Shown here one piece after another: positions 5,017 through 15,469 of a stretch of 60,878 nucleotides of DNA. Position numbers and translations under genes: made by a program. The notes under the pieces were generated by a model. It was not told where the DNA came from, did not search any database, and saw only the letters and a program-made list of their open reading frames with translations. This DNA comes from Clostridia bacterium. GTDB taxonomy: Bacteria; Bacillota; Clostridia; Oscillospirales; CAG-272. Every line of letters starts with the position of its first letter. Position 1 is the first letter of the stretch. The DNA lies in the NCBI GenBank assembly GCA_017472285.1, contig JAFUQQ010000016.1, positions 1-60,878 on the forward strand, in the 5' to 3' direction.

Positions 5017-5823
5017 ATGGAAAAAACGGTAAAATTTGAAGCCGTAAGCTTTAGCAAACGCATGAAAAGTATGCTTGCGGTTGATTTCAGAAGAATGTTT
5101 CGATCCAAATTATTTTATATCATTCTTGCCTGTGCTTTGATGATGCCCATTCTAATGACGGTTATGATGACGATGATGGACGGTTCCGTTTCCGTTGATC
5201 CCCAAACGGGTGTGGAATCGATCATGGTCGGTCCCGAAAATACGTGGCAGAATATCGGCACGCTTCCCGGTGACCCCTTGGGATGCGATGAAGTATTCGC
5301 TATGTGCAATATCAATATGGCATTTATGGGTGTTTGTGTATTCGTTTGCCTATTCATTTCGGATGATTTCCGAAGCGGTTACGCAAAAAATCTTTTCACC
5401 GTCCGCGCAAAAAAAGGAGAATATGTCATTTCCAAAACGCTTGCCGGTTTCGTTTGCGGCGCATTGATGTTGATTGTATATTTCATCGGTACGGTTCTCG
5501 GTGGCGCGATTTCGGGACTTTCCTTTGATCTTCACGGTCTGACTATCGGAAATCTTATGATGTGTATGCTCGCAAAAATTTTCCTGATGCCCGTATTCGT
5601 ATCGATCTTTACACTCATCAGCGTTGCGGCAAAACAGAGAACATGGCTTTCGATCTGCGGTTCTCTCGGCGGCGGAATGCTCCTCTTTATGATGGTTTCC
5701 ATGATTACGCCTCTCGGCTCGACTTTTATCAACGTTATTCTTTGTCTTGTCGGTGGTATTCTGTTTGCTGTCGGACTCGGCGCGATCAGTAAAGTCGTTT
5801 TGAAAAAGACGAGTCTGGTATAA
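5017..5823 (+). CDS. ABC-2 type permease, copy 2
   Basis: Permease of 268 residues with about six membrane segments, paired with the preceding ATPase. A larger extracytoplasmic loop lies after the first membrane segment (about residues 50-85). It is the last gene of the 1959-5823 operon. Thirty bases later comes the terminator palindrome that is duplicated around the 5.9-kb element. Confidence 0.8.
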   Translation: MEKTVKFEAVSFSKRMKSMLAVDFRRMFRSKLFYIILACALMMPILMTVMMTMMDGSVSVDPQTGVESIMVGPENTWQNIGTLPGDPLGCDEVFAMCNINMAFMGVCVFVCLFISDDFRSGYAKNLFTVRAKKGEYVISKTLAGFVCGALMLIVYFIGTVLGGAISGLSFDLHGLTIGNLMMCMLAKIFLMPVFVSIFTLISVAAKQRTWLSICGSLGGGMLLFMMVSMITPLGSTFINVILCLVGGILFAVGLGAISKVVLKKTSLV

Positions 5824-5855
5824 AAAACTTATTGCAATTTCTATATATCGTTTCA

Positions 5856-5880
5856 GCCCGCCAAGGATTCCTTGGCGGGC
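5856..5880. terminator. ABC-operon terminator palindrome, left copy
   Basis: GCCCGCCAAGG and CCTTGGCGGGC pair across ATT. A near-identical copy (23 of 25 bases) lies at 6142-6166. The pair brackets a MITE-like insert, so it looks like a duplicated target site. Confidence 0.7.
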
Positions 5881-6141
5881 TTCAGACTGTCGAAAAAGGT
5901 ATGTAGAAAAGCCGAAAATAAAAAGTTGCACAAAAAACTCAAAAAGATACCTATTATAAAGGCTCGCCCTTTGGGAGAGCTCCCGACGAAAGTCGGGTGA
6001 GAGGGCGGTAATATATGCTGAAAATGCCCTCTTCGTCAACTACGTTGACACCTCTCCCGAAGTGAGAGGCTTTTAAAAAGTTTTTCTTTTGTTAAAAATG
6101 CCGAAGACAAATTTTGAAACCGACTTTTTCGACACACTGCA
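5881..6141. mobile_element. MITE-like non-autonomous element, about 260 bp
   Basis: The left end reads inward CTTCAGACTGTCGAAAAAG. The right end, read inward on the other strand, is CTGCAGTGTGTCGAAAAAG. These imperfect terminal inverted repeats share TGTCGAAAAAG. The interior has two nested hairpin units (about 5970-6010 and 6028-6072) and no open frame of note. Both ends abut a copy of the same terminator palindrome. The ends resemble the IS1182-type end at 60515-60533, which suggests mobilisation by a related transposase. Confidence 0.55.
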
Positions 6142-6170
6142 GCCCGCCAAGGAATCCTTGTCGGGCTTTT
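6142..6170 (+). terminator. Terminator palindrome, right copy
   Basis: GCCCGCCAAGGA and TCCTTGTCGGGC pair, followed by TTTTTCT. It differs from the copy at 5856-5880 at two positions. It still looks functional in the plus direction. Confidence 0.65.
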
Positions 6171-6231
6171 TCTGTTGCTGATGAGGAGAGGATTTTCTCC
6201 AACGATTAAACGCCTTTGAAATGAGGCATAT

Positions 6232-6313
6232 TATATCATAGAAATTTTGAAAAAATTTTGATAAAATGATATAAAAAGCGGCAAGTCAGATTTGAGTCAT
6301 TTTCTATGATATA
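6232..6313. repeat. 13-bp inverted repeat flanking the recombinase promoter
   Basis: TATATCATAGAAA (6232-6244) and TTTCTATGATATA (6301-6313) are perfect inverted copies, 56 bp apart. They enclose the promoter of the tyrosine recombinase. ATGATATAAAAA also occurs as a direct repeat (about 6266 and 6306). The likeliest role is binding of the recombinase or a regulator for autocontrol. Confidence 0.5.
6247..6275 (+). promoter_or_regulatory. SigA promoter of the tyrosine recombinase
   Basis: TTGAAA, a 17-bp spacer and TATAAA. It lies about 60 bp before the recombinase start and between the two 13-bp inverted repeats. Confidence 0.6.
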
Positions 6314-6332
6314 AAAAAGGAGAATATCTTAT

Positions 6333-7175
6333 ATGGAAAAACAAATTATGGATACGAAAAGAATAGAGAAATTTGCAATATATTTACGGGATGAAGAAAG
6401 AAGTGCGGCGACCATTGAAAAATATATGCGCGATATTCGCTTTTTTGCGACATTTATCGGAGATCAAGAGATTACAAAACAAAACGTAAAAGAATATAAA
6501 GATGTGCTCAGTCGTCGTTATACCGCGACCAGTGCCAATTCTATGATTGCGGCACTGAATTGTTTTCTTCGCTTTTGCGGTTGGCATACCCTTTGTGTCA
6601 AACAACTGAAAATTCAAAGACAAGCATATTGTTCCGAAGAAAAGGAATTGACAAAGGCGGAATATATCCGCTTGCTGACGGTAGCACAGGCAAGACACAA
6701 TGAACGACTGAATTTAATGATACAAACGATATGCGGTACGGGAATCCGTGTGAGCGAATTGCAATATATTACGGTTGAGGCGGCTCGGAAGGGGGAAGCC
6801 TTCGTGAATTGTAAAGGGAAAAACCGACGAATCTTCATCGTTTCCGGATTGAAGAAAAAGTTGCTTCGTTATGCAAAAACAAAAAACATCGTCACGGGAA
6901 TGATATTTGTGACAAAAAGCGGGAAAGCAATCAGCAGAAATAACGTATGGAAAGAAATGAAATCCTTGTGTAAAGAAGCGGGTGTTTCTCCGAGCAAGGT
7001 TTTTCCGCATAATTTAAGACATTTATTCGCACGGACTTTTTATGCAATGGAAAAAGATATCGCAAAGCTTGCGGATATTCTTGGTCACGCAAGCATCAAT
7101 ACGACACGCATTTATATCGTTACAAGCGGCGCGGAACACAAAAGAAAGCTGGAACATATGCGGCTGATTATATAA
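6333..7175 (+). CDS. Tyrosine recombinase (XerC/D-type), probable DNA invertase
   Basis: Site-specific recombinase of 280 residues. Residues 10-95 form the SAM-like core-binding domain. The catalytic domain shows Arg in GTGIRVSEL (about 136), Lys in the GKNRR region (about 168), HNLRH (about 226, the HxxR pair), LGHASINTTRIY with His about 249, and the nucleophile Tyr about 257. The ribosome site AAAGGAG precedes the ATG. The gene lies immediately before a 21-bp inverted repeat pair enclosing a promoter, so it most likely inverts that segment. No tRNA, excisionase or phage gene is nearby, which argues against an integrative element. Confidence 0.88.
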   Translation: MEKQIMDTKRIEKFAIYLRDEERSAATIEKYMRDIRFFATFIGDQEITKQNVKEYKDVLSRRYTATSANSMIAALNCFLRFCGWHTLCVKQLKIQRQAYCSEEKELTKAEYIRLLTVAQARHNERLNLMIQTICGTGIRVSELQYITVEAARKGEAFVNCKGKNRRIFIVSGLKKKLLRYAKTKNIVTGMIFVTKSGKAISRNNVWKEMKSLCKEAGVSPSKVFPHNLRHLFARTFYAMEKDIAKLADILGHASINTTRIYIVTSGAEHKRKLEHMRLII

Positions 7176-7183
7176 CGGATAAT

Positions 7184-7215
7184 AAAAAAATACCCGATGC
7201 AAAAGCACCGAGTAT
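7184..7215 (-). terminator. Minus-strand terminator between recombinase and switch
   Basis: On the minus strand, ATACTCGGTGC and GCATCGGGTAT pair fully (two G-U pairs) around TTTT, followed by seven T. It is placed to stop the leftward transcript from the promoter at 7273-7301 before it runs antisense into the recombinase gene. On the plus strand the same bases give a weaker stem. Confidence 0.6.
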
Positions 7216-7216
7216 C

Positions 7217-7237
7217 ACATAACGGGAATTATGTTAT
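7217..7237. repeat. Left inverted repeat of the promoter switch
   Basis: Perfect 21-bp inverted partner of 7505-7525. The site is built like a tyrosine-recombinase core: arms ACATAA and TTATGT around a 6-bp asymmetric centre CGGGAA, then TAT. Confidence 0.85.
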
Positions 7238-7272
7238 ATCAATATTTATATTTTATTGTTCCATACATATTC

Positions 7273-7301
7273 ATTATAGCGCGTGCAACTGAAAAAATCA
7301 A
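7273..7301 (-). promoter_or_regulatory. Consensus promoter inside the invertible segment
   Basis: Read on the minus strand: TTGATT (7301-7296), a 17-bp spacer and a perfect TATAAT (7278-7273). It points left, away from the matrix operon. In the inverted state it would map to about 7441-7469 on the plus strand, with a start near 7476. Confidence 0.75.
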
Positions 7302-7347
7302 TACTTTTCCAAAATTTTATAGAATATTAAATAAAAATATGCGTGAC

Positions 7348-7393
7348 AAAAACGCCTTTCGTAAATTTTTTTAAAATAGACGAAGGGCTTTTT
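7348..7393. terminator. Central terminator of the invertible segment
   Basis: GCCTTTCGT and ACGAAGGGC pair (one G-U) with A-rich and T-rich flanks on both strands, so it can stop transcription both ways. It lies almost exactly at the centre of the invertible segment, so it remains between the recombinase and the operon in either orientation. Confidence 0.6.
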
Positions 7394-7504
7394 CGTTGCG
7401 CTTTTTCATTATAGGAAATTGCTAAAAATAGCCCTTGCCGTTTCGCTTTATTCCGATACAGGTGAACTTCGATAGGCAAGAAGCTGTCCGCGGCGACACG
7501 CCGC

Positions 7505-7525
7505 ATAACATAATTCCCGTTATGT
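7505..7525. repeat. Right inverted repeat of the promoter switch
   Basis: Perfect reverse complement of 7217-7237 over 21 bases. The match stops on both sides. It lies 36 bp before the first gene of the SipW/TasA cluster. Confidence 0.85.
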
Positions 7526-7560
7526 TTCTTACAAAAAATCCTTTGAAAAGGAGAGCAATT

Positions 7561-8052
7561 ATGACCAGAAACCGATTGATGCGGATTCTTTTGATTTTGA
7601 TGAGCATTCTGATTCTTATCGGTATTGTCTTGATGCGTTGTACGCCAAACAGATTGACGGCAAACGGCGGCATAATCAAGGTTCTCTTATCTGATAGAAA
7701 AACACAAATCATAGAATTTGAAGAGCTTTGTCTGATTCCCGGAGAGGAATGTGAATATCTCGTCAAGCTGGAAAATACATCCGCCGAACAATGCAACGTG
7801 ACGCTTAATTTTCGGGAAATCGAAGAAAAGACATTAAAGAATTTTGTTCGTGTAAAAATGATATCGGACGGAGAACTCCTCTGCGATGAACTTCTTGCTG
7901 ATATGTTTGAGCATGAAAATATCGTTCTTCCCGTTGATTTTACGAAAAATAAAAATACCGAATTGAAAATCGTATATTTTATGCCTTTGGAAACCGGCAA
8001 CGAAGCGAAAAATACCGAAACGGTTTTTGAATTGCGGATTACGGCAAATTAA
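7561..8052 (+). CDS. Membrane-anchored beta-rich protein, first gene of the matrix operon
   Basis: Product of 163 residues: one membrane segment (about residues 7-27) and an extracellular beta-rich domain with alternating polar and hydrophobic residues (VKLENTSAEQCNVTLNF about 75-92), reminiscent of the TasA/camelysin fold. It lacks the TYALFT cleavage motif, so it probably stays anchored. The start at 7561 is set by AAAAGGAGAGCAATT; the longer open frame from 7435 lies in the invertible segment and has no ribosome site. It ends 14 bp before the signal peptidase gene. Confidence 0.65.
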   Translation: MTRNRLMRILLILMSILILIGIVLMRCTPNRLTANGGIIKVLLSDRKTQIIEFEELCLIPGEECEYLVKLENTSAEQCNVTLNFREIEEKTLKNFVRVKMISDGELLCDELLADMFEHENIVLPVDFTKNKNTELKIVYFMPLETGNEAKNTETVFELRITAN

Positions 8053-8066
8053 GGAGTGAGGTAGTT

Positions 8067-8837
8067 ATGAACAAAGACAAACTGAAAAAATTCGGAAATA
8101 TTCTTTCCAATGTGGTGGTATACATATTTCTCGCTGTTTGTATCCTGTCCGTAATTCTCACGGTCTTTTCCAAAAAAGATGCGGACGGTGCGGCGGAAAT
8201 CTTCGGTTATCAGATGAGAGTGGTCACTTCCGACTCCATGGCAGAATGTAAATATACAGACGTATCTGATTTCAAAATCAAATCGATTCCTTCTCGTTCG
8301 ATGGTGTTTGTTCGTGTGAGACCGGATGACCCTGCGGAAGCGAATGAATGGTATCGCAGTCTGCAAGTCGGTGACATTCTGACGTTCCGTTACGTTTATA
8401 CCACGCAGATCACGATCACGCACCGTATCGTTTCCATTACCGAAAAAGAAACGGGCGGATTTATCATCGAGCTTGCGGGAGATAACAAAAACGCCGAGGA
8501 CGGCCAGCTTTTTCAGGTGATCGATACGTCCATTCCCAATAATACCAATTACGTGATCGGTAAAGTGACGGGTCAAATATATTGGCTTGGTGTCGTTATG
8601 AGCTTTCTGATGCAGCCGATCAGCATTGTTCTGCTGATTATATTGCCTTGTCTGCTGATTATTTCGGGAGAGGTGCTCAAAATCGTCAAAGTGCTGACTG
8701 CGGATAAAAAAGCAAAACAGCAGGAGGAAATGAGGGCAAGAGAACGTGAATTGGAAGAATTGAGAAGTAGACTGGCACTTCTTGAAAAAGAAACAAATGC
8801 CGCGAAAACAGAGAACGGAGAGGGAGAACAATCATGA
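8067..8837 (+). CDS. sipW: SipW-type signal peptidase I, copy 1
   Basis: Membrane serine protease that removes signal peptides of TasA/camelysin-type proteins. Membrane segment at about residues 14-34. Catalytic Ser in VVTSDSM (about 52-58). In place of the bacterial Lys there is a His in ITHRIVSI (about 113-120), the Ser-His arrangement of the ER/SipW subclass. A second membrane segment (about 180-210) is followed by a cytoplasmic coiled coil (about 212-250, KAKQQEEMRARERELEEL) that ordinary SipW lacks. The stop overlaps the next start as ATGA. Confidence 0.85.
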   Translation: MNKDKLKKFGNILSNVVVYIFLAVCILSVILTVFSKKDADGAAEIFGYQMRVVTSDSMAECKYTDVSDFKIKSIPSRSMVFVRVRPDDPAEANEWYRSLQVGDILTFRYVYTTQITITHRIVSITEKETGGFIIELAGDNKNAEDGQLFQVIDTSIPNNTNYVIGKVTGQIYWLGVVMSFLMQPISIVLLIILPCLLIISGEVLKIVKVLTADKKAKQQEEMRARERELEELRSRLALLEKETNAAKTENGEGEQS

Positions 8838-9022
8838 GTCCTGTTGTTATTATTTTCATGGTCGTCGCAACGATCTTTGCTTTGGCAACACTCTTATACG
8901 TTGTGATCGATCTTGTTCTTGAAAGACGAAAGAAGAAAGAATCCGAAGAAGAAACGGAAGAAACAGAAGAAACGGAAGACTCCGAAGAAACAAACGAAGC
9001 AGAAAAGACAGTCCAAGATTGA
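8834..9022 (+). CDS. Small membrane protein with acidic tail
   Basis: Product of 62 residues: an N-terminal membrane segment (about 3-26), a basic patch (ERRKKKE) and a very acidic Glu/Thr-rich tail (about 36-60) with repeated EETEE units. It overlaps the signal peptidase gene by four bases (ATGA), so it is translationally coupled. It may be a partner or adaptor of the signal peptidase; no known family is recognised. Confidence 0.6.
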   Translation: MSPVVIIFMVVATIFALATLLYVVIDLVLERRKKKESEEETEETEETEDSEETNEAEKTVQD

Positions 9023-9081
9023 TTTCGTTACAGAAATGCAGCGTTTCAATAAAAAAATTTGTGGTGAAAGGAGGATTGGCT

Positions 9082-9744
9082 ATGAGAAATACGAACAGAA
9101 AAAGAGTTTTGCTTGTTTCAGGTGCAATCATCTTGCTTTGTATCACGATTATTGCGGGCATGACGTTCGCACTCTTTACCGATGAAGAAGCGGTGAATAA
9201 CCATCTGAAAGCGGGCGATTTGGATATTACCCTGATCAGAACAAATCTGAAATCGACGCGTCTGACGGAAAGAGGTTTTCTTGAAACCGTAACGGATGAC
9301 ACGGATAAGGATTTCACCAACAATAAGGATGAAAACGTTTTCGGTCTTGATGGCGAACTGATCGTTCCTTTGAGTGAATACGAAGCAGATTTGACTTTGA
9401 CCAACAAAGGCGACGTGGCTTTCAAATACGGCATTCAGATCGTACTGGGTGAAGATTCCGATCCCGATCTGGCAGAACAACTAGAAGTAACTGTTACAGT
9501 TAACAATGCTGATGGTACAACCGAAACCAAGCGTTTGAACGAAGGCTTGGGTATCGGAAGCAATGCGCAAACGTTCGGCTTATTGGCTGTCGGTGACGAT
9601 TGCGATTTTTCCGTAAAAGTAAAATTCCTTGACGACCGCAAATATGAAGACGAATTTGAAAATAACGACGCGCAAGGCGATGACGTATATTTCGATTTGG
9701 TCGTATATGCCGTTCAGTACACGGAAAAAGATCCCGCAAATTAA
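9082..9744 (+). CDS. TasA/camelysin-like secreted protein 1
   Basis: Secreted or surface fibre-type protein of 220 residues. A SipW-type signal peptide (about 1-30) ends in GMTFALFTDEE, followed by LKAGDLDITL as in TasA, CalY and camelysin. The rest is a beta-rich domain with an Asn/Asp-rich LTNKGDVAFKYGIQIV strand typical of the family (about 118-134). The start at 9082 is supported by AAAGGAGGATTGGCT. It is the first of five likely SipW substrates in the cluster. Confidence 0.78.
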   Translation: MRNTNRKRVLLVSGAIILLCITIIAGMTFALFTDEEAVNNHLKAGDLDITLIRTNLKSTRLTERGFLETVTDDTDKDFTNNKDENVFGLDGELIVPLSEYEADLTLTNKGDVAFKYGIQIVLGEDSDPDLAEQLEVTVTVNNADGTTETKRLNEGLGIGSNAQTFGLLAVGDDCDFSVKVKFLDDRKYEDEFENNDAQGDDVYFDLVVYAVQYTEKDPAN

Positions 9745-9782
9745 GCGTTTCCCACAAAAAACATATCAGGAGAAAAAACACT

Positions 9783-10433
9783 ATGAAAAAGAAAATTTTG
9801 TTGTCCTCGGTTCTGACAATCGCGCTTTGCTTTTGTCTGATCCTTGGCTCTACTTACGCTTTGTTCACAAGCGAAGCGGATTTTGATATCGCTGTTACCG
9901 CAGGTAAAGTTGAAATTTCCGCAACCATCAACAAAGCTCTCCAAGTAAAATCTTTAGAAGATAAGGATTTCCAAGAAGGTAAGGTATTCTCTAACGGCGG
10001 TACTGTTTCCATCAACGAAGGCGAACTTGTTATTGACAAAATGACTCCCGGTGATGAAGTTAAGCTTGCAATTGATGTAACAAATAACAGCAATGTAGCT
10101 GTCAAGTATAGAGTAAAAGCAACCTCCGCCGCAATCATCGGTGATGGAAAAGTCGATCTGACGGATGCTTTGGAATGCAAGGTCTTCATCGACGGTCAAG
10201 ATTTCTATATGACGAAAGATGCAAAAACTTTTGAATCCGGCTGGTTTGAAGTTGATGCAAACGATGCAATTCCTTACATTGCCGTAAAGGTTACGTTCCC
10301 GAACGGAACACCCAAACACGACAATCAGTTCCAAGACGGGACTGCAAACATATCTTTTGTCCTGGAAGCAGTTCAGGCAAACGGTATCGATGGCGAATGC
10401 AATCTGATCCTTCCGGAAACCACTAACCCTTAA
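9783..10433 (+). CDS. TasA/camelysin-like secreted protein 2
   Basis: Product of 216 residues. The signal peptide ends LGSTYALFTSEADF (about 21-34), followed by VTAGKVEISATI. The family strand VTNNSNVAVKYRVKA is at about 99-113. The C-terminal half is beta-rich with FVLEAVQANG, the usual closing strand of the fold. The ribosome site AGGAGAAAAAACACT precedes the ATG. It is probably exported and assembled with its neighbours. Confidence 0.78.
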   Translation: MKKKILLSSVLTIALCFCLILGSTYALFTSEADFDIAVTAGKVEISATINKALQVKSLEDKDFQEGKVFSNGGTVSINEGELVIDKMTPGDEVKLAIDVTNNSNVAVKYRVKATSAAIIGDGKVDLTDALECKVFIDGQDFYMTKDAKTFESGWFEVDANDAIPYIAVKVTFPNGTPKHDNQFQDGTANISFVLEAVQANGIDGECNLILPETTNP

Positions 10434-10461
10434 AATCCAATAAAATAACGGCAAGGAGGTT

Positions 10462-11055
10462 ATGATGTTCCGTTATAAATCGAATAAACAGGCATTGATG
10501 ATAGCGGTCTTGATCATTCTTCTTTGCTTTGTCAGCCTTACGGGCGCGACTTATGCACTTTTTACAAGCAATCTGAATGACGGTACGATTGGTATCATCA
10601 CAACGGCAGGCGAGGTCAAAATCGATATCGTAGATGCTGCCGATGAAACCGTTTCACTCGTTGGGGACGTTCTGGAATTTCAGACGGTATCCGACAAAAA
10701 AGCTGTTTTGTTTGAACCAGGCGCAACTTTTTATACGCAAGGGTTCAAAATCAAAAATGAAGGTAATATCACTGTCAATTTTCATCTCTCCGTCAGTGAA
10801 GATGAAAAAATCGATATGGATGAATTCCACAGGGCTTTTGAAGTCTGGATTTCAACCACCCACGATGGCTCGCATGACGCGGAAAAACTGACCGATTTCA
10901 AAGGACGGTTGACTGCGGAAACCCTCAGCGAAGAAACTTATTATTTGTTTATCCGTATGAGAGAAAATGTTGGCAATGAATTTCAGGGTAAATCTTATAC
11001 GGGTATCGGTGTCACCGTATATGCGGTACAAGGAAACGTAGATATCAAGGAGTAA
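10462..11055 (+). CDS. TasA/camelysin-like secreted protein 3
   Basis: Product of 197 residues. The signal peptide ends TGATYALFTSNLND (about 27-40), then ITTAGEVKIDIVD. Family strands IKNEGNITVNFHLSVS (about 97-112) and GIGVTVYAVQG near the end. The ribosome site CAAGGAGGTTATG supports an ATG at 10462; 10465 is an alternative. It ends 8 bp before the second signal peptidase gene. Confidence 0.78.
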   Translation: MMFRYKSNKQALMIAVLIILLCFVSLTGATYALFTSNLNDGTIGIITTAGEVKIDIVDAADETVSLVGDVLEFQTVSDKKAVLFEPGATFYTQGFKIKNEGNITVNFHLSVSEDEKIDMDEFHRAFEVWISTTHDGSHDAEKLTDFKGRLTAETLSEETYYLFIRMRENVGNEFQGKSYTGIGVTVYAVQGNVDIKE

Positions 11056-11062
11056 TAAACCA

Positions 11063-11785
11063 ATGAACAGCAAAACCAAAAAAATATTGAACATCTCATT
11101 GAAATGTGTAACTTGGCTTCTCGTTGCCTTTACCGTTTTTATGATGATATTTACTGTCGTAACGGTAACGACTGTGGACAGAAATGACCGCAGTATTTTC
11201 GGTATCCGATTTTATATCGTACAGACGGACTCCATGAGTAAGTCTGATAAAAATGCCGATATGGACGTTCATTTTAATGCGGGCGATATTATTATGATTA
11301 AAAACGTCAAGGATCCTACCGCGCTTCAGCCGGGGGATATTATCGCTTTCATGTCTACCAACGCGGAAAGCTACGGACAGACGATCACGCATATGATTCG
11401 TGAAGTCAAAAAGACGGAAAACGGCAGAGTACAAGGCTACGTTACGTTCGGTACCAATACGGGTGTTGACGATGAAGTCCTTGTCGAGCCCTCTTACGTC
11501 ATCGGTCAATATGCCGGAAAACTTCCGAAAGTCGGTATTTTCTTTGCGTTTGTCAAATCCACCCCCGGTTATATCGTTTGTATTCTCGTCCCTTTTATGT
11601 GTCTGATTCTTTATAATGGTGTGAACATGGTTCGTTTATTCCGTAAGTACAAGAAGAAACAGACTAATATTATGGAACAGGAAAAGGCAAAGATTGAAGC
11701 CGAAAGAAAACAAAACGAGGAAATTCTTCGTGAATTACAGGCTTTGAAAGAGGAACTTTCAAAGAAAATCAATACTCCCCAATAA
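11063..11785 (+). CDS. sipW: SipW-type signal peptidase I, copy 2
   Basis: Second Ser-His signal peptidase, 240 residues. Membrane segment about 12-36, Ser in IVQTDSMSKS (about 52-61), His in ITHMIREVKK (about 109-118), second membrane segment about 170-192, then a coiled coil (about 200-238, KIEAERKQNEEILREL). Like the first copy it has a cytoplasmic helical tail. Two paralogous peptidases in one cluster suggest different substrate sets or a heteromeric complex. Confidence 0.83.
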   Translation: MNSKTKKILNISLKCVTWLLVAFTVFMMIFTVVTVTTVDRNDRSIFGIRFYIVQTDSMSKSDKNADMDVHFNAGDIIMIKNVKDPTALQPGDIIAFMSTNAESYGQTITHMIREVKKTENGRVQGYVTFGTNTGVDDEVLVEPSYVIGQYAGKLPKVGIFFAFVKSTPGYIVCILVPFMCLILYNGVNMVRLFRKYKKKQTNIMEQEKAKIEAERKQNEEILRELQALKEELSKKINTPQ

Positions 11786-11859
11786 TTTTTGTTCTATACG
11801 CCAAAGGCGTTTAGATAGATTCGTCTTAAAAAATAATTTTTACAAGGAGGTAAAACACA

Positions 11860-13659
11860 ATGACGAATTTGAAATCCACAAGACGCGCATTGTTTACCAG
11901 CATCATTGCTTTTGTTCTTTGTTTTAGCATGTTGCTCGGTACAACGTATGCGTGGTTTACAGACTCTGTTACCAGCTCGGGTAACATCATTAAAACCGGT
12001 ACGCTCGATATTACAATGGCTTATGCAGACGGCACAGAAGACCCTGCGGCAGCCGATTGGAAAGACGCTGAAAATGCAACCATTTTCAATTATGAAAATT
12101 GGGAACCCGGTTATGTTAACGCAAAACACATCAAGATTGAAAACAAGGGTTCTCTGGCTCTGAAGTATCAGATGAGAATTATTTCCGAAGGCATCGTGAG
12201 TGAACTTGCTGACGTAATCGATGTTTACTATTTCGAAACTGCACAGCAGCTCAATGCCAGAACTACTCTTGAAAACGCAACAAAACTCGGTACACTTACC
12301 GAACTTCTTGGAACAGACGGAAATCTCTCCAAAACAGTAGAGGGTACTCTTGAAGCAGGTGAAGAAGTAACTCCTAAAATGGTTACTTTTGCATTCAAGA
12401 TGCAGGAAACCGCAGGCAATGAATATCAGAATCTTTCTGTTTCTGATGAAGGCTTCACTATTCAACTCATCGCAACACAACTTGCATCTGAAAGCGATAG
12501 CTTTGACAATCAGTATGATGCAAATGTTCCGAATCCTGCAATTCCTGCGGCTCTTGTAAGACCGCTTGAAGATACCACTGTAATGGTTACGGCTGGTATT
12601 GGTGGTGGTAATGCAGCTGAAATGGAATTGGATGCTGCTTATAAATTTGAACCCACCATCTCTGATGAAGATGTTCTGAATTCTGAATATAAGTATTATC
12701 ACGCTGATTTCTATGTCTATGCCGATAAAGCAATTCCGGCAGATAGCATCGCACTTGCTGGTTATTACTCTGTTTGGTGTGATGGTTGTAACAAAGGCAA
12801 TTGGGTAGCACTCACTAATGCTGATACTCCTTTTGCAGCGAATGAGGGTATTCGCCTCGTTCAAGCTATGGGTAACGGTGGTATTGAGGTTACCTACAAA
12901 GACATTTGCGATTACGGCAATGACGGCAAGGGCTTCCAGTGTGGTTTGAAGGCACTTAAGCCTGAGGAACTCGAAGGTACAACTGTTACCGTTGAACTTT
13001 GTATTTACGAAACCGATGTTGAGTGGAATGCATCTACTCACGGTGATTGCACCGAAAGCGGCGAATACATCACTATTGGTACATTCACTCACACTTTCCC
13101 CGGTTACGAAGTTTCCTCTTTGACTGAATTGGATGCTGCAATTAAAGCTGGTCACAAAGTTATTGATGCTAAAGGTGCTAATCTCGGAGATTTTTATTAT
13201 GATGCGAAGTTTACCGATGGCGTAGTTATCCAAAATGCTAAATTCTCTTATTTCTACGGCGGTAATGTTGAAGGCACAGTAACTTTTGAAAATTGTGAAT
13301 TTGTATCCGATCACTCTTACTCCGCAAACTTCGATAGCGGAAACGGCAAGGTTATCTTCAACAACTGTCTGTTTGATGGTTGGAGTTCCTTTGGTACAGC
13401 GATCACAGGTGTTGAAATGAATAATTGCACATTCCAGAAAACTTACCTGTATGGTGTGCTTCGTTTCTATCAGGACGCTGCATTGAACAATTGCACTTTC
13501 GCAGATAGCTTCGAGGGTGTTGACTCCAATGTAACTGGTACAGAAGTACACTTTAATAATTGCACAGGTATTGATAGTAAAATCTACAATAATGGCGACA
13601 ATGTCGGTACATGGATCGTTGATGGCGTTGATATTTCCGATACAGTTACTGCTTGGTAA
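11860..13659 (+). CDS. Large SipW-substrate protein with TasA-like and beta-helix regions
   Basis: Largest product of the cluster, 599 residues. The signal peptide ends LGTTYAWFTDSVT (about 27-39), followed by IIKTGTLDITMAY and a TasA-like domain to about residue 225 (IENKGSLALKYQMRII). A middle domain (about 235-425) has a Cys pair, CDGC. The C-terminal region (about 430-590) carries repeated turns FENCEF, FNNCLF, MNNCTF, LNNCTF, FNNCTG, which look like rungs of a right-handed beta-helix with an Asn-Cys ladder. Codons differ from its neighbours (many gct, act and aac), suggesting high expression. The ribosome site is AAGGAGG. Confidence 0.78.
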   Translation: MTNLKSTRRALFTSIIAFVLCFSMLLGTTYAWFTDSVTSSGNIIKTGTLDITMAYADGTEDPAAADWKDAENATIFNYENWEPGYVNAKHIKIENKGSLALKYQMRIISEGIVSELADVIDVYYFETAQQLNARTTLENATKLGTLTELLGTDGNLSKTVEGTLEAGEEVTPKMVTFAFKMQETAGNEYQNLSVSDEGFTIQLIATQLASESDSFDNQYDANVPNPAIPAALVRPLEDTTVMVTAGIGGGNAAEMELDAAYKFEPTISDEDVLNSEYKYYHADFYVYADKAIPADSIALAGYYSVWCDGCNKGNWVALTNADTPFAANEGIRLVQAMGNGGIEVTYKDICDYGNDGKGFQCGLKALKPEELEGTTVTVELCIYETDVEWNASTHGDCTESGEYITIGTFTHTFPGYEVSSLTELDAAIKAGHKVIDAKGANLGDFYYDAKFTDGVVIQNAKFSYFYGGNVEGTVTFENCEFVSDHSYSANFDSGNGKVIFNNCLFDGWSSFGTAITGVEMNNCTFQKTYLYGVLRFYQDAALNNCTFADSFEGVDSNVTGTEVHFNNCTGIDSKIYNNGDNVGTWIVDGVDISDTVTAW

Positions 13660-13679
13660 ATATTATTGACGGATAATTA

Positions 13680-13870
13680 TATAAGACTCTGCCTAATCCT
13701 TTTAGGACTGGGCGGCAATCAAAGATCATCTATATAGCTTATTCTCCCAAAACATAGAGATTTTCCAAAAGCTGTCCTATCCTCTTCGGAGGATAGGCGG
13801 CAACCCGAGGGCATAAGCATTTGTTTCTGCCTTCCGGCTGCCGAAAAGATAACAAACCTCATAAAATCAG
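13680..13870 (+). promoter_or_regulatory. Leader with two homologous hairpins
   Basis: Two hairpins lie in the 226-bp gap before the last gene: GCCTAATCCT / AGGACTGGGC (13690-13714) and CCTATCCTC / GAGGATAGG around TTCG (13776-13797). Each is followed by GGCAAYC. The second extends by GCTG / CGGC with one bulged base. A third small hairpin (GCC / GGC region near 13830) follows. It could be a structured cis-regulatory RNA; I do not recognise a named riboswitch. Confidence 0.4.
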
Positions 13871-13885
13871 AAAGGAGGTTACAGA

Positions 13886-14401
13886 ATGAAAAAAATATTT
13901 TTTTCGGATGAAGAAAATTTGAGTGAAAAAGCGTTTCTGCAAGGAATTGCAACTTGTGTTTTCAGTATTATATTTTGTTTGATTGCATTATGTTCTGCGA
14001 CATGGGCTTGGTTCCGTACAGATATTTCTTCTGCATCCAATACCATTCAGACAGGTACATATACTTTGAAGATTGATATTGAAAATGTAAAGCCGGAATC
14101 TTCAACGGATACAACATATATATATGAGTTGCCCACCGGAACCTATCGGGTGGGATTGAGCGTTGAACCCTCTTCTGTTGGAAATGGATATTGTAAAATT
14201 AAGGTAGATGATAAATATTATTATACTGCAAATATTTCTGCTTCAGAAGAATCGTTTTCATTTACATTGGATATTCGTAGAAACGAGACGGATGCTTCGA
14301 TTCCTGTAACCTTTGAATTGTGTTGGGGGATTTATAGCGGAGCGGCGGATGTTACTGCCGATGGTACGCTTACAATCAATCATAATACGACCGAATCTTA
14401 A
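13886..14401 (+). CDS. SipW-type signal peptide protein, last gene of the cluster
   Basis: Product of 171 residues. A hydrophobic segment (about 22-45) ends CSATWAWFRTDISS, a variant of the SipW cleavage region, followed by TIQTGTYTLKIDIE. The remainder is a short beta-rich domain with repeated Thr-rich strands. The ribosome site AAAGGAGGTTACAG precedes the ATG. It ends at a bidirectional terminator. Codon use is more AT-rich than in the preceding gene. Confidence 0.7.
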   Translation: MKKIFFSDEENLSEKAFLQGIATCVFSIIFCLIALCSATWAWFRTDISSASNTIQTGTYTLKIDIENVKPESSTDTTYIYELPTGTYRVGLSVEPSSVGNGYCKIKVDDKYYYTANISASEESFSFTLDIRRNETDASIPVTFELCWGIYSGAADVTADGTLTINHNTTES

Positions 14402-14600
14402 TATGAAAAAGCCGAATGGTGACAACCATTCGGCTTTTTTGACATAATCCCATACCGTTCCTTTTTGTACCGTCTGTATGTACGGTTGATTTGCTGACAC
14501 CGAATTTTGCGGCGGCTTTTCGGACGGTATCCTTTGTTTTTATCATATGTTCTGCGAGATTGATTGCTCGCTCTGTGCTGTTTTCTCTCAAAAAAATCAT
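14376..14600 (-). pseudogene. Truncated spoIIID-like regulator fragment
   Basis: The first about 42 residues match the helix-turn-helix half of the sporulation regulator SpoIIID: ERAINLAEHMIKTKDTVRKA followed by AAKFGVSKSTVH. Full SpoIIID continues KDLTERLPEI and is about 80-90 residues; here the similarity stops after STVH and the frame runs into the operon terminator. The gene has therefore lost its C-terminal half. A GGAGG site precedes ATG at 14600. It could still yield a short HTH peptide. Confidence 0.6.
14406..14440. terminator. Bidirectional terminator, 15-bp stem
   Basis: AAAAAGCCGAATGGT and ACCATTCGGCTTTTT pair around GACA, with T-runs on both strands. It ends the matrix operon and also lies within the reading frame of the spoIIID-like fragment, cutting that gene short. 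Confidence 0.85.
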
Positions 14601-14669
14601 TCCTCCGCGCATATTTTTTTATGATGATATATATGACGGAAAAAGATATTTTATGATCGAAAAATCTTG

Positions 14670-14690
14670 AAAAAGGGGAGCGATGCCCCC
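14670..14690 (-). terminator. Terminator of metG-tatD
   Basis: Minus-strand stem GGGGGC...CCCC followed by TTTTTC, just after the tatD stop. It ends the metG-tatD transcript. Confidence 0.55.
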
Positions 14691-14695
14691 TTATT

Positions 14696-15469
14696 TCAGT
14701 TTATATTGAAAAGTTTTTTTGCGTTTTGGACTTCCTGTTCACAGAAAGCATCGTATTCCATTTGCAAAAGCTCAGCGGCTTTTGCGGCGGTATAATGCAT
14801 ATAACCGCTATGATTGGTTTTTCCGCGCATGGGAACGGGTGCGAGATAAGGGCAGTCCGTTTCCACTAAGATGCGGTCTTTCGGCGTTGCCAGCACGCTT
14901 TCGAGCGTTTTCGACGCATTTTTGAATGTGATGACACCCGAAAACGAGATATACCAACCCATTTTGACATATTCTTTGACTTGTTCTGCCGATGCGCTGC
15001 AACTGTGCAGAATACCGATGACACGGTTTTTGTATTCCCGAATGATGTCCATCGTATCGCCGTGCGCTTCACGGTCATGGATGATGACGGGAATATTTTT
15101 TTCTGCCGCAAGCTCCATCTGTGCGCGAAAGACGCGCATCTGGGTTTCTTTGTCGCAGAAATCATAATAATAATCAAGACCGATTTCACCGAGTGCAACG
15201 GTTTTCTCGTGCGCGAGTTTTTGCGCGAGGCTTGCCATCGCATCATCGAGATTTTCCACCTTGCCTGCTTCATGCGGATGGATGCCTGCCGAGGCATAGA
15301 TACCGACGTACTGCTCCGCAAGCGCGATACAGTCATCGGAATCCGTAAGGTTGGTGGCAACGGTCAGAATGTGCGAGATATCCGATGCGAAAAGGGAATC
15401 AAGGAGCTGTGTATTGCCGCGCAGACATTCATCCGTATAATGCGCGTGCGTATCAAAAAGCTTTGCCAT
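14696..15469 (-). CDS. tatD: TatD-family metal-dependent DNase
   Basis: Two-metal hydrolase (257 residues from the chosen start). Metal and catalytic residues are visible: FDTHAHYTD (about 4-12), EIGLDYYYD with Glu, IIHDREAHGD, a His in GILHSCSA and Asp in VETDCPYLAP. Acts as a 3'-5' exonuclease or as a D-aminoacyl-tRNA deacylase-like enzyme in related families. The start at 15469 follows the metG stop by one base, and metG-tatD is a widely conserved pair. The longer frame from 15547 only overlaps metG. Confidence 0.87.
   Translation of the reverse strand: MAKLFDTHAHYTDECLRGNTQLLDSLFASDISHILTVATNLTDSDDCIALAEQYVGIYASAGIHPHEAGKVENLDDAMASLAQKLAHEKTVALGEIGLDYYYDFCDKETQMRVFRAQMELAAEKNIPVIIHDREAHGDTMDIIREYKNRVIGILHSCSASAEQVKEYVKMGWYISFSGVITFKNASKTLESVLATPKDRILVETDCPYLAPVPMRGKTNHSGYMHYTAAKAAELLQMEYDAFCEQEVQNAKKLFNIN

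Follow-up and report, generated by a model that had tools for sequence, protein, structure and literature searches.

A 309-bp segment in the genome of a Clostridia bacterium is very probably inverted by the tyrosine recombinase encoded beside it, and this inversion of a segment with a predicted promoter would likely switch an operon of SipW- and TasA-type genes on and off. The segment occupies positions 7217-7525 of contig JAFUQQ010000016.1 (assembly GCA_017472285.1), whose whole stretch of 60,878 nucleotides is called the window here and supplies all coordinates unless another contig is named. Two 21-nt arms form the predicted recombination sites, found by repeat and site-pattern searches: the left site at 7217-7237 on the plus strand, with the core ACATAA-CGGGAA-TTATGT, and the right site at 7505-7525 on the minus strand, an inverted copy of the left. 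The arms are 100% complementary and 267 nt apart, and the left one starts 41 bp 3′ of the recombinase stop codon. The segment thus has the near-perfect inverted repeats of 10-40 nt, placed around a short stretch of DNA, that mark an inverton. When arms up to 700 bp apart are considered, this is the longest perfect inverted repeat in the 60.9-kb window; the runner-up has 20 nt (5862-6160), and in 30 shuffles of the whole window that preserved its dinucleotides the longest such repeat measured 12-15 nt.

Inside the segment, a promoter-like sequence (TTGATT-17-TATAAT, a 10/12 consensus match) lies on the minus strand at 7301-7273 and faces the recombinase gene, so that the assembled copy is read as OFF. 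A second, weaker match (9/12, 7349-7321) has the same direction, and between 6268 and 9295 the plus strand has none that reaches this threshold. Inversion of the segment in silico regenerates both repeats and moves the −35 element to 7441-7446 and the −10 element to 7464-7469, with 91 nt from the end of the −10 element to the ATG at 7561, a leader of about 85 nt, and the AAAAGGAG site at 7546-7553 untouched. At the level of consensus matching, then, a promoter would face the operon in one orientation only. The region holds six promoter-like matches against 8.7 expected from shuffles, which is no excess, so the promoter call draws on position and conserved layout and not on the match by itself.

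Two terminator-like hairpins accompany the promoter. One, a minus-strand hairpin that adjoins the left arm on its outer side (7189-7216), has 12 pairs followed by a T-rich tail; the other, inside the segment at 7354-7388, was found on both strands and has T-rich tails in both directions. A similar minus-strand hairpin lies between recombinase gene and left site in 25 of 36 loci, the window included (loci with a gap of at least 25 bp, scored by looser criteria and without a shuffle control), and both-strand hairpins are present inside 51% of 57 segments, whereas plain shuffling of the segments gives them in 1% at equal score. If these predicted structures act as terminators, they would be a built-in insulation of the switch. 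Most of this layout had been proposed in a sequence-only reading of the same DNA: the perfect 21-bp repeat between a recombinase gene and a nine-gene cluster; the minus-strand consensus promoter in an OFF copy; its place at 7441-7469 after inversion, with an 85-nt leader and an intact AAAAGGAG site; and the SipW/TasA character of the cluster. All of these hold.

The same arrangement recurs in related genomes. Relatives of the recombinase were gathered by protein similarity alone and the surrounding DNA was then fetched, which gave 86 loci after removal of four duplicates; 66 of these have at least 400 bp of sequence 3′ of the recombinase gene, and the 20 shorter ones were left out. The named relatives are uncultured Clostridia, mostly from animal guts. 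Their recombinases are 43-74% identical to that of the window, and a match at E ≤ 1e-90 is present in 47 of 295 sampled genomes of the order. Site pairs were picked by the 12 arm positions alone, with up to three mismatches per site, and the 6-bp centre played no part in the choice. By this procedure, an inverted pair with the arms ACATAA/TTATGT lies within 600 bp of the recombinase gene in 58 of the 66 loci, the paired sites spanning 220-371 bp. Two more loci have pairs farther off, as a 2.3-kb invertible segment in one (L047) and as a trio of sites about 3 kb from the recombinase gene in the other (L049); L045 and L053 carry an extra direct copy of the left site. In L125, a recombinase remnant in inverted orientation lies beyond a single site, and one remnant at this locus was dropped before the counts were made.

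Strand exchange by tyrosine recombinases needs conserved arms together with a centre that is matched within the pair. The two 6-bp centres are identical in 56 of the 58 pairs by the arms-only choice, and in 57 after correction of L065, where that choice took the wrong pair and the right pair is identical; L136 has one centre mismatch. Across the 58 loci there are 43 distinct centres, and the consensus of 114 sites from 57 loci is approximately TAC-N-ACATAAT-N4-ATTATGT-N-GTA (L065, with its wrongly chosen pair, is kept among the 58 and left out of the orientation, hairpin and 114-site counts). No site pair was found at nine distant recombinase loci when up to four arm mismatches and one centre mismatch were allowed, and none in 469,281 bases farther downstream in the same loci, compared with 56 of 59 switch regions; L120, which has a spurious pair at a contig end, is counted only among these 59 and in no other switch count. 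These clean controls, together with the shuffle maxima of 12-15 nt against the 21 nt of the repeat, rule out a chance origin. It could also be argued that the repeats are a regulatory hairpin or an operator for the operon or the recombinase rather than recombination sites, as each arm is itself palindromic and could fold or bind a protein. We consider this extremely unlikely, because the centre varies among loci yet matches within nearly every pair, as crossover sites require and operators do not, and because the paired sites are spread over 220-371 bp and natural inversions occur among the relatives.

The segment occurs in both orientations at related loci. Promoter direction classes 42 of the 57 loci as OFF and the other 15 as ON, and orientation judged by alignment gives the same answer for 109 of 117 informative pairs. 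For example, L139 and L147 align collinearly at 87% identity along the 1,846 bp that lead to the left site, beyond which the segment (81%) aligns only when turned; L141 and L147 are collinear straight through it. The window itself is collinear through the recombinase gene with L073, a locus from a Clostridia metagenome-assembled genome of sheep colon, and the interior of the segment aligns only in the inverted sense (78% over 105 bp, E 2.9e-14). L073 is ON and also has SipW and TasA-type genes; L079, likewise from sheep colon, has an ON switch followed by the window's order of first gene, SipW and TasA. The segments of L076 (10873-11151) and L078 (10872-11150) are 98.9% identical, only when one is turned, beside left flanks that are collinear, and their recombinase regions are only 83% identical; segments may have been exchanged between cassettes, or the end of the L078 contig may be chimeric. 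The sequence-only reading had advised a search for the same repeats and layout in related genomes, and had held that relatives fixed in one orientation or lacking the perfect repeats would count against a switch; the search found the pairs in 58 of 66 loci, orientations of both kinds, and in L073 a relative inverted with respect to the window. Counted from coordinates, contig ends fall within the gene or in the 400 bp after it for 20 of the 86 recombinases, and in the 400 bp before it for seven. Such breaks were not relied on as a sign of mixed orientation, six of the 20 downstream cases coming from one many-copy genome.

The comparison of flanks also bears on whether the sites instead serve to attach, or mark the ends of, a small mobile cassette, consisting of recombinase and promoter, that inserts before surface genes and inverts only as a side product. 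The module of recombinase and segment is conserved while the right flanks vary among relatives, as such a cassette would predict. However, the recombinase gene is outside the site pair, with both sites to the same side of it, the sites are inverted and not direct, a promoter match with terminator-like hairpins lies between them, and both orientations occur next to collinear left flanks. A mobile cassette is therefore very unlikely, and we favor an invertible promoter.

The candidate invertase is a 280-amino-acid tyrosine recombinase encoded at 6333-7175 on the plus strand, with a Phage_integrase domain (Pfam, 2.3e-25) and an N-terminal SAM-like domain. Alignment with solved Xer-type proteins shows a complete catalytic set (R139, K163, H226, R229, H252 and Y261), and the catalytic columns are conserved in 57-58 of 58 aligned recombinases; one row has unaligned sequence at R139 and K163, which accounts for the only gap. 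The conserved Xer system is ruled out as its identity, because the protein misses the equivalog cut-offs for XerD (116.8 against 329.6) and XerC (112.2 against 335.15). The models for tyrosine-type DNA invertases also stay below their cut-offs (NF007370, 26.4 against 221; NF007371, 27.0 against 222). We infer that this protein is the enzyme that turns the segment. An inverted repeat of 14 bp without mismatches (TTATATCATAGAAA / TTTCTATGATATAA) spans 6231-6314, immediately 5′ of the recombinase start, and is perhaps an operator for recombinase expression. Farther upstream, between the gene that ends at 5823 and the recombinase gene, a 91% inverted repeat pair of 44 nt (5855-6167) encloses other, shorter inverted repeats and resembles a small repeat element.

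Nine genes on the plus strand follow the segment, from 7561 to 14401. The first (7561-8052) encodes a membrane-anchored protein that scores above cut-off with no Pfam or NCBIfam family; its predicted structure has a TasA fold, the match to TasA being clear of those to other structures. It is followed by SipW-type signal peptidase 1 (8067-8837; NF046067, 3.2e-19, and TIGR02228, 5.1e-13, both under the curated cut-off) and a small membrane protein of 62 amino acids known from its translation, with no family above cut-off (8834-9022). Next come two secreted proteins of the TasA/camelysin type, at 9082-9744 and 9783-10433 (PF12389, 28.2 and 36.1 bits, cut-off 22.5), and a third, weaker TasA-type protein at 10462-11055, which has no family above cut-off and is assigned by phmmer similarity to the adjacent TasA-type proteins; a similarity search with the protein of 9783-10433 returned 134 proteins, itself included. 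SipW-type signal peptidase 2 (11063-11785; TIGR02228, 58.2 bits, cut-off 51.85) is 26% identical to the first. A large TasA-type protein of 599 amino acids (11860-13659) matches PF12389 (38.2 bits, cut-off 22.5) and the SipW-type signal model TIGR04088 (23.1 bits, cut-off 19), with a weak C-terminal beta-helix match under cut-off, and the last gene (13886-14401) has a SipW-type signal peptide (TIGR04088, 19.2 bits, cut-off 19). The operon probably ends at a hairpin with A/T flanks at 14406-14440 on the plus strand, which was read in the sequence and is absent from the terminator scan list. All three Pfam TasA-type matches of the genome lie within this operon; tapA was not recognised in it by the Pfam and NCBIfam models applied. 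The gap before the last gene (13660-13885) contains, by eye, two similar short stem-like units without an Rfam match. A structured RNA or riboswitch was considered and set aside, as Rfam gave no match at gathering score in the window and none to E 1 in 6000-14700.

A mechanism can be proposed from these elements. The sites would be dyads: the recombinase would bind the conserved arms, and the 6 bp between them would form a crossover centre that each locus of this genome has to itself. In the OFF state, the promoter would face the recombinase gene and its transcript would be halted at once by the hairpin at 7216-7189, which would keep it from running antisense into that gene; the hairpin within the segment would end any read-through from the recombinase gene short of the operon. 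Once the two sites had recombined, the promoter in the turned segment would lie about 85 nt ahead of the first gene, and the operon would be transcribed. Its products would be the membrane-anchored protein with the TasA fold, two SipW-type peptidases and several TasA-type secreted proteins, and the probable outcome is a surface fibre or matrix made in part of the population only. This supposes that the promoter is active and that individual cells of the organism are in different states.

Several observations weigh against this proposal. The promoter within the segment is a consensus match only, and the matrix or fibre function of the operon is suggested by its protein families, which miss the Bacillus equivalog cut-offs (TasA NF046066, best 21.9 against 450; SipW NF046067, 77.8 against 190). 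A matched site pair is absent at six of the 66 loci (L125, L133, L149, L051, L145 and L143; three of them from genus g33), so the recombinase is not always accompanied by a switch. Eight of the 117 orientation comparisons disagree. The switch is not dedicated to matrix genes, because SipW and TasA-type genes occur together downstream in only nine of 58 loci. In L068 (contig C124 of genome G004), the recombinase gene next to an ON-oriented switch is interrupted by a stop codon, and the switch may therefore be locked. Finally, the inverted left junction is absent from the window's own assembly, with up to three mismatches allowed.

The last two points, together with the unmatched second site of L143 and the centre mismatch of L136, raise the question of whether the switch of the window is itself decayed or locked, having inherited its sites and recombinase without flipping now, so that the operon is silent or driven from elsewhere. 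We regard this as unlikely. The 21-bp repeats are perfect, the recombinase is intact with all catalytic residues, the interior of the segment is inverted relative to L073, and there is no plus-strand promoter match from the recombinase start to the fourth operon gene.

The window is not the only switch locus in its genome. The site pattern occurs six times there (0 times for the reversed control), and five of the six sites adjoin three recombinase genes, with an own centre at each, on contigs C56 (OFF), C62 (ON) and C34 (OFF). The sixth, an orphan on contig C2, has no matched partner in the 2 kb examined and is taken as chance. Positions 8130-12950 of C62 (genome G000, partly L038) hold a second recombinase with its ON switch and, just upstream of that recombinase gene on the opposite strand, three SipW-type matches, one of them weak.

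Among the 58 loci with a site pair, the nine with both SipW and TasA-type genes within 8 kb downstream comprise five OFF and four ON copies; SipW occurs with or without a TasA-type gene in 15, SipW alone in six and the TasA-type signature alone in two. The TasA-type signature is a pattern of our own and not a curated one, and the SipW profile was built from the window's second SipW. Because short contigs hide downstream genes (L078, for example, has no open reading frame there), nine and 15 are lower bounds. SipW-type matches number 137 at E ≤ 0.001 in 59 genomes, or about 2.3 per genome, and SipW behind 15 of 58 switches appears far above random placement, although this is a rough comparison that uses two different SipW models and was made without a test. 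The other targets resemble lipoproteins and other secreted or membrane proteins, named by eye from the starts of first open reading frames.

A broader possibility, to which we give an even chance, is that the recombinase, the site pair with its private centre, the promoter and the two-way terminator form a portable, self-insulated module that is placed before surface and matrix operons throughout one order of Clostridia. The centres would then act as addresses that keep the several switches of a genome independent, and a lineage would hold a set of surface programmes that flip separately, the TasA/SipW matrix recurring among them. An implication of private centres is that several switches could work side by side without cross-recombination. 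The matched centres could show how tyrosine recombinases separate several switches in one cell, and they provide a natural set of candidate orthogonal recombination sites. If the switch operates as proposed, the split between matrix makers and non-makers would be written into the DNA, heritable and legible in metagenomic reads; matrix bistability in uncultured Clostridia would therefore be countable, as the ON fraction in each animal, gut site or time point.

In Bacillus subtilis, the on/off split in matrix production is set by regulatory circuits. Its tapA-sipW-tasA genes combine a SipW-type peptidase with TasA-type fibre and matrix proteins in one operon (PMC4551309). Clostridium perfringens expresses sipW-bsaA bimodally, which needs the BsaRS two-component system and PilA2 (PMC7395162); the text of that paper contains neither "inversion" nor "recombinase". 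The window's operon is like both in pairing a SipW-type peptidase with TasA-type proteins, and differs in its predicted control by DNA rearrangement, in having two SipW genes and in the lack of a recognised tapA. A further parallel is the fim switch of Escherichia coli, an invertible promoter before surface fibre genes with adjacent tyrosine recombinases. That switch is named in PMC11868660. Compared with fim, the window has a recombinase of 280 amino acids that falls under the invertase-model cut-offs, it belongs to a Gram-positive lineage, and its fibre would be of the TasA type rather than the chaperone-usher type.

Parallels also exist in Clostridioides difficile, in which a segment flanked by inverted repeats is likewise turned by site-specific recombination. 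The flagellar switch is inverted site-specifically by RecV (PMC7446863), and the pdcB switch Cdi2 has 174 bp, 19-bp imperfect repeats and a promoter active one way only (PMC9286219). The target of Cdi2 is a cyclic diguanylate (c-di-GMP) phosphodiesterase gene 840 bp away, whereas in the window the switch is followed immediately by a structural operon and adjoins the recombinase gene. Judged by titles, the opening of abstracts and term counts, an invertible promoter on a SipW/TasA operon is not among the literature matches listed, which do not cover subscription papers, preprints and supplements, and no paper in the full-text literature searched combines "invertible promoter" with SipW and TasA. 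The earlier claim that this is not a described system therefore stands for the SipW/TasA target, as far as the literature was searched, and fails for recombinase-linked clostridial invertons, which have been published. In the hCom2 gut community, inverton group 139 comprises 33 invertons, 32 of them from Clostridia, that are statistically linked to nearby tyrosine recombinases of invertase group 35, and in a member from Clostridium sp. D5 read counts show orientation shifting over passages (PMC11892184, a 2025 study); "SipW", "TasA" and "camelysin" have no occurrence in its main text. By description, the window resembles these groups as a clostridial inverton with a tyrosine recombinase nearby (PMC11892184). 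To what is described there, the family of the window adds matched private centres, predicted built-in hairpins and a recurrent SipW/TasA target.
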